This document shows positions 26,371 to 33,712 of a stretch of DNA of 64,000 nucleotides, piece after piece. The DNA comes from Bacillus sp. Cs-700. GTDB taxonomy: Bacteria > Bacillota > Bacilli > Bacillales > Guptibacillaceae. Every line of letters starts with the position of its first letter. Position 1 is the first letter of the stretch. The notes under the pieces were generated by a model, which searched no databases, was not told the origin of the DNA, and was given only the letters and a program-made list of their open reading frames with translations. The DNA lies in contig NZ_CP041063.1 of the NCBI RefSeq assembly GCF_011082085.1, positions 620,001 through 684,000 of the forward strand, given 5' to 3'. A program made the translations under genes and the position numbers.

Positions 26371-27027
26371 ATGCATACGGAGATCGATGATGAATATTGC
26401 GATCAGAAGCAACTGGAAGAAATGATTACTAAGCTTTATCATTATTGCTACCATCTGACTCAGAACAAGTGGGATGGAGAAGAGATTGCTCAGGAGACGA
26501 TTTATAAAGCATTAAAACACTACCGAAATGAAAAGTGGAGTAATGCCCTCTTGAAAAAGATGGCCTATCATCAATGGGTTGATCGCATTCGAAAGCGTGA
26601 CAAAGAAAATCTATTTTCTGAAATTGACTTGCAAGATGATGCAACCGCTGACAAAGAATGTTGCTCCGAATGGCTAGAAAAGCTTTTAAAACAACTAACG
26701 CCAAAACAGTTTATTACTTTTGTATTGAAAGAAGCCTTTCAATACAAAATTTCCGAAATTGCCGTTCTTCTTAATATGTCAGATACCGGCGTTAAGGCAT
26801 TGTTAAGCAGAAGCCGCATAAAGGTGAGAAAATTACCTGATACAGAAATGAATTCTTTTTGGTATGAAAATATGCATGAATCGCTTCTACACACTATCGT
26901 TCATTCCATTCATACACAGAATCCAAGTGAGCTAATTAAAATGCTTCCAATCCTTCTCAATCCTAAGGTTTCATCATTTAAAACAACGTATGCTTCACCT
27001 CCTAGCGTCCTCTCACTAGCTGCATAA
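26371..27027 (+). CDS. ECF-like RNA polymerase sigma factor
   Basis: The product has 218 residues. Region 2 is at about 15-75 (YHYCYHLTQNKWDGEEIAQETIYKAL), and region 4 is at about 110-155 with a helix-turn-helix (FKISEIAVLLNMSDTGVKALLSRSR-like). A C-terminal tail of about 50 residues extends beyond region 4. It directs RNA polymerase to an unknown regulon. AAGGAGTGATG precedes the ATG. No anti-sigma gene is adjacent; instead a clpP gene follows after 25 bases, so the two are probably co-transcribed. Confidence 0.85.
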   Translation: MHTEIDDEYCDQKQLEEMITKLYHYCYHLTQNKWDGEEIAQETIYKALKHYRNEKWSNALLKKMAYHQWVDRIRKRDKENLFSEIDLQDDATADKECCSEWLEKLLKQLTPKQFITFVLKEAFQYKISEIAVLLNMSDTGVKALLSRSRIKVRKLPDTEMNSFWYENMHESLLHTIVHSIHTQNPSELIKMLPILLNPKVSSFKTTYASPPSVLSLAA

Positions 27028-27052
27028 TAAACGCGATTAGGGAGGAAATGTT

Positions 27053-27634
27053 GTGAATATACCTTATGTGATCGAACAATCTAGTCGAGGAGAGCGATCG
27101 TACGACATTTACTCAAGGTTGTTAAAGGATCGGATCATTATGGTTAGTGATGAAATTAATGACGCGATGGCAAACAGCATCGTGGCACAACTATTATTTT
27201 TAGCAGCAGATGCTCCTGACAAAGATATTTCACTCTATATTAATAGTCCAGGTGGATCCACGTCAGCAGGATTTGCGATTTTTGATACGATGCACTATAT
27301 TACGCCAGATGTAAAAACCATTTGTACTGGAATGGCTGCTTCGTTTGGAGCAATGTTATTACTTGCAGGTACAAAAGGAAAACGATATGCTCTGCCAAAT
27401 AGCGAAATCATGATTCATCAGCCTTTAGGCGGGGCCCGTGGCCAAGCAACTGATTTAGAAATCTCCGCCAAGCGCATTCTTAAACTAAGACAGCATATTA
27501 ATCACATCATCGCAGAGAAAACCAAACAATCTCTTAATAAAGTAGCACTAGACACTGACAGAGATTATTTTATGAGCGCTCAAGAAGCAAAAGAGTATGG
27601 GATTATTGACGAGATCATTCAAAAAGCAAAATAG
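27053..27634 (+). CDS. clpP: ClpP-family serine protease
   Basis: The product has 193 residues. The catalytic triad S97 (GMAASFG), H122 (IHQPLGG) and D171 (DRDYFM) is complete. The length and motifs are those of a functional ClpP, the proteolytic chamber used with ClpX or ClpC. It begins with GTG after AGGGAGGAAATGTT. Its position downstream of a sigma factor is unlike the usual isolated housekeeping clpP, so it may be a second paralogue with a specialised role. That is an inference. Confidence 0.93.
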
Positions 27635-28133: not shown

Positions 28134-28166
28134 GAAGACTGGCTGTTTTTACTAGAATTTTATCTG

Positions 28167-28197
28167 AACATCATCATTCATTTGATGGTGTTTTTTT
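28167..28197 (+). terminator. terminator of the VOC gene
   Basis: AACATCATCA pairs with TGATGGTGTT, followed by a T-run. Confidence 0.85.
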
Positions 28198-28251: not shown

Positions 28252-28280
28252 TAGAAATGAAGGGAATCATTCATTATAAT
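28252..28280 (+). promoter_or_regulatory. probable promoter/operator of the D-amino-acid operon
   Basis: TAGAAA (28252-28257), a 17-base spacer and TATAAT (28275-28280). AATGAA and TTCATT flank the spacer as an inverted repeat that could bind the RpiR-type regulator. Confidence 0.45.
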
Positions 28281-28326
28281 AAACGAAAAGAAGTATTAAC
28301 TTCGTAAACGCACGAAAGGAGCAGCT

Positions 28327-29181
28327 ATGAACCAGCTTTCCATTACTCAAATGATTAAACAGCATTATCCTTCCCTATCTACCGGTCAAAAAAAAGTTGC
28401 AGAGTGGCTCACCCAAAATCATGAGGAAGGAGCATTGTTGACCGCTTTTCAAATGGGAAGGAAAGTGGGAGTCAGTGAAACGACTGTCATTCGCTTCTCA
28501 TATGCACTTGGATTTAAAGGATATTCTGAAATGCAGGAATCCGTTCGAACTCATTGGTTAGGAAAAAATAGAACCAAACAACTAGGAAATTCTTCAGATG
28601 TACAGGAAGTAACTGAACACACCCTTTTTAACGATATTGTAAAGGAAGAAACGGCTGTCCTACAGCAATTGTTAACCCAAATAGACAAAGACGAGATCTG
28701 GAAGGTGATTGATTGTCTCATTAAAGCAAAATCTGTTTACATTGCTGGCTTTGGAAGTTCGTACGGAGCGGCATACTGGCTACATTATAACCTGAAGCAA
28801 TTAAGGGAGGGGATTAGTCTTTCGAATTCAAGTGGCTTCTCACCTGAAGACCTTTGTGATCTCACTCAAGATTCTATTGTCTTTCTGTTTTCATTCCCAC
28901 GTTATCGAAGAGAAGCGGTTGAGCTTGCTACGTGGTCACAACAGCAATTGATTCCTGTCATATCCGTTACAAATCGGCAATTATCTCCCATCGGCTCCCT
29001 TTCAACACTTACTTTAACAACGGAGGAGAAGATGGAGTCAGGTCACCACTCTATTTCCTCAGTGATTAGTCTTTTGGAAATGATCCTAAAAGGAATACAT
29101 TTCAAAGACAGTGACCGTATTAGTCTTCGTCAACAAAAGTTAGAACAGCTTTACAGTAAACAAAGCTGGTTTGTTGAATAA
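28327..29181 (+). CDS. MurR/RpiR-family transcriptional regulator
   Basis: The product has 284 residues. The N-terminal HTH_6 domain (residues 1-80) includes MGRKVGVSETTVIRFSYALGFKGYSEM. A SIS sugar-isomerase fold follows at about 120-260 (VYIAGFGSSYGAAYWLHYNLK). RpiR proteins usually sense phosphosugars, but some regulate amino-acid or acyl-amino-acid genes. It is the first gene of an operon for N-acylamino-acid metabolism, 26 bases before the membrane protein gene. The effector is unknown. Confidence 0.88.
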   Translation: MNQLSITQMIKQHYPSLSTGQKKVAEWLTQNHEEGALLTAFQMGRKVGVSETTVIRFSYALGFKGYSEMQESVRTHWLGKNRTKQLGNSSDVQEVTEHTLFNDIVKEETAVLQQLLTQIDKDEIWKVIDCLIKAKSVYIAGFGSSYGAAYWLHYNLKQLREGISLSNSSGFSPEDLCDLTQDSIVFLFSFPRYRREAVELATWSQQQLIPVISVTNRQLSPIGSLSTLTLTTEEKMESGHHSISSVISLLEMILKGIHFKDSDRISLRQQKLEQLYSKQSWFVE

Positions 29182-29207
29182 CACGATAAGGAAAAGGTGG
29201 AATGTTT

Positions 29208-30587
29208 ATGAACGGAATGCCTAAACCAAAAGAAAACATCAATGTTACTTCTTATGACACAAAGGATATTTTAACGTTTTTAATCCCATCCTTGATTGGA
29301 ATTCTATTGTTTATTGTTCCTATTAAGCAGGATGGAGGAATCACCATCCCCGTGGCGTTTTTGGCTGGATTTATCAATGATTCCATCGGTACACTTATCC
29401 CGGCCATAACCGTATTTATCATGGGTGCTTCGACAATCGGTTCGTTTATTGCTATAACAATGAATCCATCATTTATAACGAAAAGAACCGGTTTACATAC
29501 TTTACTTCACGTCAGTCCTTTCTGGTTAATCGCTCGATTACTCGGAACAATGCTTGCCGGAATGACGCTTTTTAAGCTAGGACCTGAAATGATTCACTCT
29601 GAAAACACTGGTGGACTTTTAATCTATGATTTAATTCCAATACTATTTTCAACGTTTTTACTAGCGGGTCTATTACTACCACTTCTTTTAAATTTCGGAC
29701 TACTTGAGTTTTTTGGAGCACTACTTATTAAAATCATGAGACCGCTCTTCACATTACCAGGTCGATCATCGCTTGATTGCCTTGCTTCATGGGTAGGTGA
29801 CGGGACGATCGGTGTCCTTCTGACAACCAAGCAATATGAAGAAGGATATTACACAAAACGAGAAGCAGCTGTCATTGCGACTACTTTTTCAGTTGTTTCG
29901 ATTACATTTACGATTGTCATTATTACTTATTTAAATTTAGAACAATATTTTCTCCAATACTACGCAACAATCATTATTGCTGGTCTAGCAGCAGCTCTTA
30001 TTATGCCACGCATACCGCCATTGTCTCGGAAATCAAACAAAGGGTATGAGCAAACAGAATTGAAGAAAGAAACAGGAATTCCAAAAAACATTTCATCAGC
30101 CAAGTGGGGGTTTGAACAAGCTGTTTCAAAAGCTCAAAAGAACAAAGGACCGTTAAGCGTAGTAAAAGAAGGAACGCAAAACGTTTTAGACATGTGGTTA
30201 GGCGTTTTACCGATTGTTATGGCGATTGGTACGATCGCGTTAATTACGGCAGAATTCACGCCTTTCTTTACTTATTTAGGAAAGCCCTTTGAGCCTATTC
30301 TAACGCTAATGAACGTTCCTGAAGCAAGTGAAGCAGCCCAAACCATGGTTGTTGGATTTGCCGATATGTTTCTGCCTGCTGTAATTGGTAGCGGCATAGA
30401 AAGTGAATTAACTCGCTTTATCATCGCTTGTGTTTCGGTTACGCAATTAATTTACATGTCAGAGATGGGTGGATTGCTTCTTGGTTCGAAACTTCCGATT
30501 AGCATTTTCGATTTGATCATTATTTTTCTCATTCGTACATGCATTACTTTGCCGATCGTTGTTGGTATCGCACACGTCATCTTTTAA
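29208..30587 (+). CDS. YjiH-family membrane protein (nucleoside-recognition GATE domain)
   Basis: The product has 459 residues and about ten membrane segments. The half around VADMFLPAVIG-like GFADMFLPAVIGSGIESELTR and the two Gate-type repeats match YjiH-like proteins. These are thought to be transporters or transporter partners. Within this operon it probably moves the substrate amino acid or an acyl derivative; this is inferred. The second ATG (29208) is chosen because AAGGTGG (29194-29200) is seven bases before it and only one base before the ATG at 29202. Confidence 0.75.
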   Translation: MNGMPKPKENINVTSYDTKDILTFLIPSLIGILLFIVPIKQDGGITIPVAFLAGFINDSIGTLIPAITVFIMGASTIGSFIAITMNPSFITKRTGLHTLLHVSPFWLIARLLGTMLAGMTLFKLGPEMIHSENTGGLLIYDLIPILFSTFLLAGLLLPLLLNFGLLEFFGALLIKIMRPLFTLPGRSSLDCLASWVGDGTIGVLLTTKQYEEGYYTKREAAVIATTFSVVSITFTIVIITYLNLEQYFLQYYATIIIAGLAAALIMPRIPPLSRKSNKGYEQTELKKETGIPKNISSAKWGFEQAVSKAQKNKGPLSVVKEGTQNVLDMWLGVLPIVMAIGTIALITAEFTPFFTYLGKPFEPILTLMNVPEASEAAQTMVVGFADMFLPAVIGSGIESELTRFIIACVSVTQLIYMSEMGGLLLGSKLPISIFDLIIIFLIRTCITLPIVVGIAHVIF

Positions 30588-30604
30588 TAGAAAGGAGCAT
30601 TCTA

Positions 30605-31735
30605 GTGGATTTTATAGATGAGCATCATGATGAAATCTTTAAAACCTATGAAGAACTGCATCAACTGGCTGAAGCAAGTTGGCAGGAAAAGAAAACAGCG
30701 CAATATTTAAAAGAAAAGTTATCACGCGCTGGATATCAAATCCACACCTTTGAAGGACACTTTGGCTTTGTTGCAGAGTTTAATCGAAAGAGCGCTCAAG
30801 TCATTGCGCTTCGTGCCGATATGGATGCATTAATTCAAGAAGTGGAGGGCATTGTGAAGCCGAACCATTCATGTGGGCATGACGCACATAGTACGATGGT
30901 GTTATTTGCTGCGCTCTCCCTTATCAACCAACCTATGAAGCACACCATTCGGTTTATTTTTCAACCAGCGGAAGAAACGGCTGAAGGGGCATTGAAAATG
31001 ATCGAGGAGCAGGTGCTAAAAGATGTTGTCTTTCTCGGAGGTATTCACTTACGTCCGGCGATGGAAATCCCTTTAGGAAAAGCAGCGCCTGTTATTTCTC
31101 ATGGATCAACAACGAGTATAAAGGGATGGATTAAAGGTGTACCTTCTCACGCTGCTCGGCCAGAAAAGGGTAATAACCCACTCGAAGCAGCCGCGGCTAT
31201 AATTCAAGCTCTAAAACAAATCCGTTTAGACGTACCAGATGCTTATTCGGTGAAAATCACTGAACTTCATGGCGGTGAAGCTGCCAATTCAATACCATCG
31301 AAAGCTCGGTTCACACTGGACCTAAGAGCAAGATCAAACGAGACGATGACACAACTTATTGAGCAAACGAATCACGTCATTACAAAAGTGGGCGAGTTAA
31401 CGAAAACAGAAATCACTTCCACCGCTGCCGAATTTTCCCCTGCCGCTGTGAAACATGCACTAGCCATTGACCTTGCGACAAAAGCAATAAGCGCCACTTT
31501 AGGTCGCGAAAACGTTGTATCAGAATGCGCATCACCAGGAGCGGAAGATTTTCATTTCTATTCGTTGAAACACCCTTCAGTCGCTTCAACTATGATTGGA
31601 CTAGGTTGTAACCTACTGCCTGGATTGCATCATCCGAACATGCATTTTAACAAGGAAGCCTTAATGGATGGAACGAAGATTCTAATCCAATTACTTTTAG
31701 AAGCTGATCAACAGAACTGGCTAGAAAGAAGGTAG
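30605..31735 (+). CDS. M20-family metallopeptidase / N-acylamino-acid deacylase
   Basis: The product has 376 residues. The amidohydrolase (M20D) motifs are in order: RADMDAL, NHSCGHDAHSTM (zinc-binding), QPAEETAEGA and a final GLHHPNMHF. Such enzymes remove N-acyl groups from amino acids or peptides in the cytoplasm. In the context of an N-acylamino-acid racemase it should be the L-specific desuccinylase. The start is GTG at 30605, eight bases after AAAGGAG; the frame also runs further upstream without a ribosome site. It lies 17 bases after the transporter gene. Confidence 0.88.
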   Translation: MDFIDEHHDEIFKTYEELHQLAEASWQEKKTAQYLKEKLSRAGYQIHTFEGHFGFVAEFNRKSAQVIALRADMDALIQEVEGIVKPNHSCGHDAHSTMVLFAALSLINQPMKHTIRFIFQPAEETAEGALKMIEEQVLKDVVFLGGIHLRPAMEIPLGKAAPVISHGSTTSIKGWIKGVPSHAARPEKGNNPLEAAAAIIQALKQIRLDVPDAYSVKITELHGGEAANSIPSKARFTLDLRARSNETMTQLIEQTNHVITKVGELTKTEITSTAAEFSPAAVKHALAIDLATKAISATLGRENVVSECASPGAEDFHFYSLKHPSVASTMIGLGCNLLPGLHHPNMHFNKEALMDGTKILIQLLLEADQQNWLERR

Positions 31736-31739
31736 CAAA

Positions 31740-32552
31740 ATGAAGACACAACCACTTATGATTCGTACCCTTCATTCTGTGGAAGAACTTGAAGAAGTTA
31801 GACGTTTAGAAACAATTGTATGGAGTTTTGATGACTCCGTTCCGGTCAATCAAAGCATGGCAGTCGTGAAAAATGGCGGATTTATTTTAGGAGCTTTTTA
31901 TGAAGAACAACTCATCGCTTTTCAATATAGCTTTCCAGGATATGATGGCAAGAAGGTCTATCTCGTTTCTCAGAGTTTAGGAATCCATCCCGATTTTCGT
32001 AAAAGAGGGATTGGCGAGAAATTAAAGATGGAACAAAGAAAAACAGCCGCTAGTATGGGCTACGATTTCATTACGTGGACGTATGATCCATTAGAAACGG
32101 TGAACGGATCGCTGAATTTAAATAAGCTAGGGGCCGTTGTAAAGTCGTATCTTCCTAACGTGTATGGCCTAATGAATGATAACTTGAACGCCGGAATACC
32201 GACTGACCGTTTTTTAGTTGAGTGGCACACGAAGGACCATAAGGGCATGCGGGAGTCAGAACTAATCCTTCCTCATGCTCTGATCACAGGTGGCGGTGAG
32301 ACTCGCTTTTACCAACCTGAAAAAGTAGATCTTTCCATCACTACAAAGAAAATGTATGTACCTGTACCTGGGAACTTTCAAGAGATAAAAAAAGCAAACC
32401 TCCCACTTGCAAAAGCGTGGAGGGAGCAAACAGGGATCGTGTTTACGCATTACCTTGAGCAGGGATGGAATGTAACGGATTTAGTAAAAAGTGAAGGCAA
32501 TCCCAATCTATATTTATACCTCTTAGAAAAAGGTGATTCAAATGAAAATTAA
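31740..32552 (+). CDS. GNAT-family N-acyltransferase
   Basis: The product has 270 residues. An acetyl-CoA-type fold is shown by [18 protein letters not shown], the Q/RxxGxG/A-type CoA loop, in the first half; the second half is a family-specific extension. Homologues next to N-succinylamino-acid racemases act as D-amino-acid N-succinyltransferases, using succinyl-CoA. That role is inferred here from the operon. It starts four bases after the peptidase stop and overlaps the racemase gene by 11 bases. Confidence 0.83.
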
Positions 32553-33654
32553 CAGCATCATCTTAAGACACATCAAAATGGACCTTTTACATCCTTTTAC
32601 GACAAGCGTTGGAACCGAGCGGGATAAAGATATTATTTTAGTTGAAGCCACCACGACATCTGGACATTCAGGTTGGGGAGAATCGGTAGCCATAATGGAA
32701 CCTATTTATAACGAAGAAACCGTTCAAACCAATTGGCATATGATGATCGATCATTTAATTCCACTTCTTTCTGGTGAAGAGTTAAACCATCCAGATGAAG
32801 TATCAGAATGTTTTAAGAAAATTCGCGGTAACTATAACGCAAAAGCAGCGATCGAATGTGCGATATGGGATCTTTATGCGAAGATAAATCACATGCCACT
32901 CGCAAAAGCACTTGGTGGAGTGAAAAAGAATATAGAAGTCGGGGTTAGTGTAGGCATTCAATCGTCACCAGATAACATTTTAAAGCAAATTGAAGATTAC
33001 TTAAAAGAGGGGTATAAGCGAATAAAAGTAAAAATCATGCCTGGTTGGGATGTTGAAATCATCAAACTGATACGTCAGCACTTTCCATCTATTCCACTGA
33101 TGGCAGATGCGAACTGTGCTTATACGTTACAGGACATTGACCATCTGAAGAAGCTCGATCAGTTTGATTTAATGATGATTGAGCAACCGCTCGCCCATGA
33201 CGACATTATTGACCATGCGAAGCTACAGTCTCAGCTAAACACACCGATTTGCTTAGACGAGAGCATTCATAGTTTAGAAGATGCTAGAAAGGCCATTGAA
33301 CTCGGTAGTTGTAAAGTCATTAACCTTAAAGTAGGGCGAGTCGGTGGACTGACTGAATCAAAGAAAATTCATGATCTTTGCGTAGAGCATCATATCCCGA
33401 TGTGGTGTGGAGGAATGCTTGAAGCTGGAATTGGACGAGCTCATAATATTGCGATCACATCATTAAGCAACTTTTCACTTCCTGGAGATACGGCTCCATC
33501 ATCTCATTATTGGAAGCGAGATATCATTAAACCGGAAGTTGAAATGAACAAGGGTAACATCCAAGTACCTGAGAAGCCAGGAATCGGATATGAACCTGAT
33601 CGCGATTACATTGACGAATTGACAATTGTTAAGAAGACCATTCAGTTTAATTAG
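32542..33654 (+). CDS. menC: N-succinylamino-acid racemase / o-succinylbenzoate synthase family
   Basis: The product has 370 residues and belongs to the enolase superfamily (MLE subgroup). Catalytic K162/K164 (IKVKI), metal ligands D189, E214 and D239, and K263 (NLKVG) are at the positions known from the Amycolatopsis N-acylamino-acid racemase. Members of this family can be OSB synthases in menaquinone synthesis, NSARs, or both. No men genes are nearby, while an acyltransferase and a deacylase are, so NSAR is favoured. The ATG at 32542 follows AAAAAGGTGATT inside the previous gene. Confidence 0.85.
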
Positions 33655-33665
33655 TGCTGTGTAAC

Positions 33666-33706
33666 AAAAAGCCACTTACCATAAATAGCGTAAGTGGCTT
33701 TTTTAT
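33666..33706. terminator. bidirectional terminator
   Basis: AAAAAGCCACTTAC pairs with GTAAGTGGCTTTTTT between the convergent racemase and MFS genes. Confidence 0.9.
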
Positions 33707-33712
33707 AAGGTA

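Follow-up and report, generated by a model that had tools for sequence, protein, structure and literature searches.

A 64,000-nucleotide stretch of the Bacillus sp. Cs-700 genome (positions 620,001 to 684,000 of contig NZ_CP041063.1, RefSeq assembly GCF_011082085.1; here called the window) carried five adjacent genes that, as judged from their sequences, were quite likely to act as a regulated operon in which D-amino acids are turned into L-amino acids. In order, the genes encoded an RpiR-family regulator, a membrane protein with a Gate domain, an M20 amidohydrolase, a GNAT acyltransferase, and a racemase of the N-succinylamino acid racemase/o-succinylbenzoate synthase (NSAR/OSBS) type. The D- to L-amino acid reading was supported because the gene set recurred as a unit in other genomes, the racemase belonged to a separate clade, the racemase was kept in genomes without menB and menD, and divergent loci added peptidases. 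The pathway was already known; the new elements were a candidate operator, a variable transporter slot, and a racemase separate from menC.

In Geobacillus kaustophilus, Sakai et al. reportedly described in 2006 (Biochemistry 45:4455) a route in which a D-amino acid is N-acylated, the N-acyl form is racemised, and the L-form is deacylated. Three other articles credited Sakai et al. 2006 with a GNAT enzyme whose products are the N-acetyl and N-succinyl forms of D-Phe, D-Tyr, and D-Trp (PMC8762209), tabulated GkNSAR/OSBS as racemising N-succinyl-S-phenylalanine (PMC8142540), and mentioned the NSAR/L-succinylase system of G. kaustophilus (PMC7431475). The G. kaustophilus route, as cited in these articles, and the window operon had three enzyme types in common: GNAT acyltransferase, NSAR/OSBS racemase, and L-deacylase. 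In gene content, the window operon differed in having its own RpiR regulator, a Gate-domain protein, and a separate menC in a men operon.

In the route that we propose, D-amino acids would be imported by the Gate-domain protein, which was the weakest step. With acyl-CoA as the donor, the GNAT enzyme would acylate (probably succinylate) the D-amino acid, and the racemase would interconvert the N-acyl-D and N-acyl-L forms, with K162/K164 and K263 as catalytic residues and a metal held by D189, E214, and D239. Hydrolysis of the N-acyl-L form by the M20 enzyme would then drive the sequence in a single direction. RpiR would repress the operon by binding GAAGT-N4-ACTTC just past the -10 box and would be released by a pathway compound and not by a sugar phosphate. 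An earlier note on this DNA had proposed D- to L-conversion via N-succinyl forms. The gene set, its recurrence, and the separate racemase clade agreed with that proposal. The sequences directly showed the genes and their order, the signals of a transcription unit, the conservation of catalytic residues, the second menC, the linkage, and the operator-like site; the enzyme activities and their direction were assigned from protein families and the published route, and the acyl group, the inducer, and the transport step are what we infer.

To place the operon among its relatives, 299 sampled Bacillales genomes were surveyed with the GNAT protein as the seed (E up to 1e-10). The survey gave 93 matches in 86 of the 299 genomes, and all 93 loci (the window and 92 others) were inspected. 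The same-strand gene string around GNAT contained the racemase at 84 loci, M20 at 69, RpiR at 54, and the Gate protein at 16. M20, GNAT, and the racemase occurred together at 68 of the 93 loci, and RpiR was present with all three at 46. With the racemase in 84 of 93 strings, the linkage exceeded chance. A scan of genome contigs gave seven loci with 57-96% identity. Among 11 sampled genomes of the same genus, the five with GNAT had two NSAR/OSBS members each, and the six without GNAT had one. Loci L041-L044 and L047, which duplicated loci cited by genome handle, were omitted from the family alignments, operator counts, and trees; the second tree was also made without L045 and L046, and racemase pieces below 300 bits (L056, three open reading frames [ORFs]) were not used.

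Four Geobacillus-like genomes (guanine-plus-cytosine [GC] content of 51-54% in the fetched loci) carried M20-GNAT-racemase and one NSAR/OSBS copy, with one of the loci cut by a contig start. The three informative loci (GC content of 51-53%) lacked both RpiR and the Gate protein, which indicated that both genes were extra in the window operon, in agreement with the earlier note, in which this locus adds its own regulator and a candidate transporter. In the literature on the racemase, on RpiR proteins with D-amino acids, and on YjiH, where titles and abstract openings were covered and subscription journals only thinly, no operon with a regulator and a transporter was found.

The racemase required close comparison with MenC. 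The NCBIfam menC model TIGR01928 scored the operon racemase at 399.9 bits (cut-off, 200.65), and the standard model thus labels operon racemases of this kind as o-succinylbenzoate synthase. However, a second NSAR/OSBS protein in the same genome, 58% identical to the operon racemase, scored 398.8 bits and was encoded in a men operon. These near-equal scores meant that the model could not separate the two copies, whereas gene context could. The men operon had the order menF-D-H-B-E-C (ORF reading), and its menB and menD passed the family models; the two other racemase matches in the genome were distant (28% and 25% identity). The operon racemase gene stood neither beside menaquinone genes nor as the sole copy in its genome, the two settings by which menC was recognized, and no MenB, MenD, or MenE match was found within positions 20001-45000 of the window. 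The earlier note would have given up its reading if the racemase had OSB synthase activity only and the genome had no other menC; the men-operon copy answered the second half of this condition.

Solved members of the NSAR/OSBS subfamily (e.g., 1sja, 1r0m, 2zc8, and 1wuf) matched the operon racemase over its full length, with E values of 1e-97 to 1e-103, and their catalytic lysines and metal ligands were identical to those of the operon racemase in the alignments. K162/K164, D189, E214, D239, and K263, which had been named from the sequence, were all present, and each was invariant across 78 aligned members. R266, a residue associated with NSAR activity, was considered as a diagnostic residue and rejected because all 78 proteins, from both groups, had R at this position. 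Other positions did differ between the operon clade and the Bacillales men-operon MenCs. S136 and T317 were invariant in 57 GNAT-linked racemases, whereas all 15 MenCs had V/A and I/L there; N64 (55/57) and H243 (53/57) were also typical of the operon clade. A tree of 104 rows placed all 15 men-operon MenCs on one side of a branch with an SH-aLRT (Shimodaira-Hasegawa-like approximate likelihood ratio test) value of 98, obtained with a quick method, which set the operon racemases apart from them. An earlier 79-row tree, with a single distant protein as its root, required two changes to account for the MenCs, so the position of the root was unsure.

We then looked at copy number and menaquinone genes in the linked genomes. 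Among the matches listed, 31 genomes had one NSAR/OSBS gene and 48 had two or more; with the addition of G046 and G132, the single-copy genomes numbered 33. The menD test covered 31 of these 33 (G054 was outside it, and G132 was covered by family models only) and found menD in 25 of the 31 and not in the other six. When menB and menD family models were applied to 14 genomes, eight fell below both cut-offs (the six without menD plus G028 and G132, which also bore the operon), and the other six passed. The racemase was retained in these eight genomes, although it was fragmented in G132. Two of the eight, G156 and G197 (the latter with 8% contamination), carried the full five-gene set. A third, G071, was a single contig whose racemase was 73% identical to that of the window and whose string held the Gate protein, GNAT, and the racemase, with no M20 or RpiR. 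At the G132 locus (L056, G132:C13:100000-119000), the racemase was spread over three ORFs, and RpiR, the Gate protein, and GNAT were open, which could reflect a draft error or decay.

We also inspected the NSAR/OSBS copies located away from the GNAT string in 15 genomes (the Cs-700 genome and 14 others picked non-randomly among the matches listed); 12 of these 15 copies were in men operons and three were elsewhere. Three comparable classes of genomes were available: those with one NSAR/OSBS gene, those with the operon racemase plus menC, and those with the racemase without menB and menD. The operon racemase was probably bifunctional in most single-copy genomes, could be dedicated where a men-operon copy existed, and could hardly take part in the classical route to menaquinone in genomes that lacked menB and menD. 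These classes place a promiscuous family of enzymes in a physiological context.

The regulator came with a candidate operator. In a dyad count 5' of 43 rpiR genes, GAAGT-N4-ACTTC was best, with a score of 95 compared to 25 for the best of 20 shuffles. In 46 rpiR upstream regions, the site was exact in 19 and had at most one mismatch in 31, counts that were inflated by near-identical members of the genus; the other 15 regions had two to four mismatches. For comparison, 50 shuffled sets of the 46 regions gave no exact site and 0.3 sites per set with one mismatch. Among 32 later loci, 7 of 18 rpiR genes had the site with no more than one mismatch (0.17 in shuffles). Most of the other 11 were second rpiR copies or lay at rearranged loci, and the gene of L196, one of the 18, was already among the misses of the first set (as L119). 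In the window, the site began nine bases past the -10 box and ended 23 bases before the start codon, such that a bound repressor would block initiation. The Cs-700 genome contained four exact GAAGTNTTNACTTC sites, and the three outside the operon were inside ORFs. A wider regulon was not found in this genome; at one mismatch, the reversed control pattern was more common than the real one.

SIS domains that bind phosphosugars have a loop of the S-x-S-G-x-T type, and the sugar-phosphate members differ from the pattern [FLY][PHS]R. This pattern occupied the SIS loop in 46 of 46 aligned RpiR proteins, an alignment that held no member of the sugar type. On this basis, we propose that the inducer may be a non-sugar compound. 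For an RpiR protein with a role other than in sugar metabolism, both an operator and an inducer would be open to testing.

The transporter slot was variable. The earlier note had called the membrane protein YjiH-like; the Gate domain (PF07670) agreed with this name, but the similarity to Escherichia coli YjiH/YjiG was marginal (no phmmer match and, with BLASTP, at best 24% identity over 95 residues), which made the label loose. The yjiH-yjiG-iadA locus of E. coli K-12 resembled the window operon in that Gate-type membrane proteins adjoined a peptide hydrolase gene, but it encoded two short proteins instead of one 461-residue protein. At other loci among the 93, the slot held a relative of AA_permease (six loci, one without a racemase), AA_permease_2 (one), a sodium-alanine symporter (one), a TRAP transporter (three), or one of two groups that neither Pfam nor NCBIfam named (10 and 8 loci). 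None of the seven slot types was present in the string at 48 of the 93 loci, and two of these (L198 and L201) had an ABC system, which in L198 was of the amino acid type (Pfam). The slot was filled by unrelated families, including several amino acid transporter families.

Divergent loci also carried added peptidases and hydrolases: an M19 dipeptidase at four loci (Pfam on one), an M55 D-aminopeptidase (so named by Pfam) in L196, Amidohydro_3 in L199, an M81 peptidase in L119, and beta-lactamase-fold hydrolases in L183, L187, and L196. Enzymes of the M19 family cleave dipeptides that contain a D-residue. L119 and L196 belonged to one large cluster (G028:C47:38000-62500) with genes for the M81 peptidase, the racemase, an oligopeptide ABC transporter, RpiR, a beta-lactamase-fold hydrolase, GNAT, M20, and the M55 D-aminopeptidase. 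This cluster looked like one for D-peptide catabolism, in a genome without menB or menD above the cut-offs. Elsewhere in the Cs-700 genome, L006 (G000:C1:433000-447000) had, by ORF reading, transporter genes, an M55-like gene, and a gene for an epimerase-like protein with 28% identity to the racemase; this locus probably recycles murein peptides and stands apart from the window operon.

The other two enzymes also matched their assigned families. The M20 protein scored 243.5 bits with TIGR01891 (cut-off, 153.75), and its metal-site motifs CGHD, PAEE, and HHP were intact and conserved in 51 aligned proteins. For GNAT, the Pfam score of 23.7 bits was weak but exceeded the threshold of 20.7.

Several results weighed against the D- to L-conversion reading. 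The survey was seeded with GNAT and therefore favored linkage to GNAT, 16 of the 84 racemase-linked loci lacked M20 in the string (among them those of G071 and G028, where the Gate protein was present and RpiR was also missing), and the Gate protein was present in only 16 of the 93 loci. The racemase occurred without an adjoining GNAT in G006, G011, and G205 and as second copies in G035 and G235. All the catalytic residues and R266 were identical in the MenCs, so none of them proved racemase specificity, and in the 25 single-copy genomes with menD, the operon racemase probably also made o-succinylbenzoate. Finally, 9 of the 93 GNAT loci had no racemase in the string. The L196 cluster had a racemase some 8 kb upstream, and L200 was a 4.9-kb contig from a 62% complete genome. 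At four of the nine (L090, L092, L093, and L103), the GNAT relatives adjoined a biotin-synthase-like (radical SAM plus BATS) gene, named by Pfam on one of the four loci, and M20 was also missing from the string; the same acyltransferase family may have been put to a different use there.

Three rival explanations were considered. The first, in which the racemase acts as an additional o-succinylbenzoate synthase (menC) and the operon belongs to menaquinone synthesis, would account for the TIGR01928 score, for the presence of both activities in relatives, and for menD in 25 of the 31 tested single-copy genomes. We consider it very unlikely, however, in view of the men-operon copy that scored as well on the same model, the lack of menaquinone gene matches around the operon, the retention of the racemase in genomes without menB and menD (including the single-contig G071), and the separate clade. 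Somewhat less remote, though still improbable, was the idea that the unit salvages N-acyl-amino acids that other organisms produce, with the membrane protein as importer, the racemase and M20 as processing enzymes, and GNAT in a side role. G006 had RpiR-Gate-M20-racemase without a GNAT of the operon family, G011 had M20 and the racemase, and the second copies of G035 and G235 were racemase-RpiR-M20 with no GNAT beside them. G252, of the same genus, retained M20 alone at the syntenic site, and one locus carried the Amidohydro_3 gene. These five genomes left room for the use of ready-made N-acyl-amino acids. On the other hand, GNAT was linked to the racemase at 84 of the 93 loci, even if in a GNAT-seeded survey, and a 231-residue protein encoded next to the G006 racemase (no Pfam family; a faint local GNAT-like match with a probability of 17%) was a possible, unproven replacement acyltransferase.

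The same enzymes would also fit a unit that detoxifies D-amino acids (e.g., D-Tyr or D-Trp), with the Gate protein as the exporter of these amino acids or of their N-acyl derivatives. ThrE-exporter-like pairs were located upstream in three Geobacillus-like loci, L085, and L102 (Pfam on one protein; the rest by size, position, or clustering). The named slot proteins, however, were mostly of the uptake type (amino acid permease, sodium-alanine symporter, and ABC or TRAP systems with binding proteins), and we give detoxification very little credence. Beyond D- to L-conversion by the operon itself, we regard as an evenly balanced proposition the broader idea that Bacillales have a modular salvage system for D-amino acids and D-peptides. 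This system would consist of an acylate-racemise-deacylate core, an RpiR-type repressor sensing an N-acyl- or D-amino acid in place of a sugar phosphate, and uptake proteins and D-peptidases that are exchanged from species to species, with the window racemase freed from menaquinone duty.

The features of the locus are listed in Table 1. The earlier note had placed the five genes at 28327..33654, and Pfam identified all of them there, on the strand and in the order given. The spacing had been put at gaps of 17-26 bases or overlaps, which needed correction: in operon order, we measured 20, 17, and 4 bases and then an 11-base overlap. Promoter-like sites were not enriched in the region (11 compared to 13.9 in shuffles), and the weight of the promoter was carried by its position. 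A terminator-like hairpin at 28166-28193 was located behind the gene upstream of rpiR, and hairpins of this type were not enriched over shuffles. In contrast, the fold of 33655-33712 at the other end had a free energy of -21.3 kcal/mol (z = -4.45), and 0 of 200 shuffles were equally stable; a general terminator scan with a loop limit of 8 had missed the hairpin in it. Given the promoter-like site, the flanking hairpins, and the short gaps, the five genes could form one transcription unit and probably did so.

Table 1. Features of the proposed D-amino acid conversion locus (window positions)
Feature	Position	Strand	Basis
RpiR-family regulator, HTH_6 + SIS	28327..29181	+	Pfam
Membrane protein with Gate domain PF07670, candidate transporter, 461 aa	29202..30587	+	Pfam; nine hydrophobic segments (simple scan)
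M20 amidohydrolase, candidate N-acyl-L-amino-acid deacylase, GTG start	30605..31735	+	Pfam, TIGR01891, motifs
GNAT acyltransferase, candidate D-amino-acid N-acyltransferase	31740..32552	+	Pfam, survey linkage
NSAR/OSBS-type racemase, enolase superfamily, ATG start	32542..33654	+	Pfam, NCBIfam, structure matches, tree
Sigma-A-like promoter TAGAAA-17-TATAAT	28252..28280	+	10/12 matches
Candidate RpiR operator GAAGTATTAACTTC	28290..28303	+	Dyad GAAGT-N4-ACTTC
Intrinsic terminator, stem-loop + T run	33667..33702	+	Folding of 33655-33712

The GC content of the operon was 0.407, compared to 0.386 and 0.365 in its flanks, and a recently acquired horizontal island was considered as its origin. In G252, a congener without a GNAT match (L169, G252:C4:605500-620500), the flanks were kept with 82-86% identity, and a lone open M20 gene lay between them, among glyoxalase-like and MFS-like genes, with 77% identical DNA over 1105 bases; the other four genes were missing there. 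The retention of only the flanks and M20 suggested loss rather than recent gain, which made an island less likely. Upstream of the operon, at 26371-27634 of the window, a small sigma-factor-like gene was located directly 5' of a gene for a ClpP-type protease, and this pair was also adjacent to the operon in related genomes.

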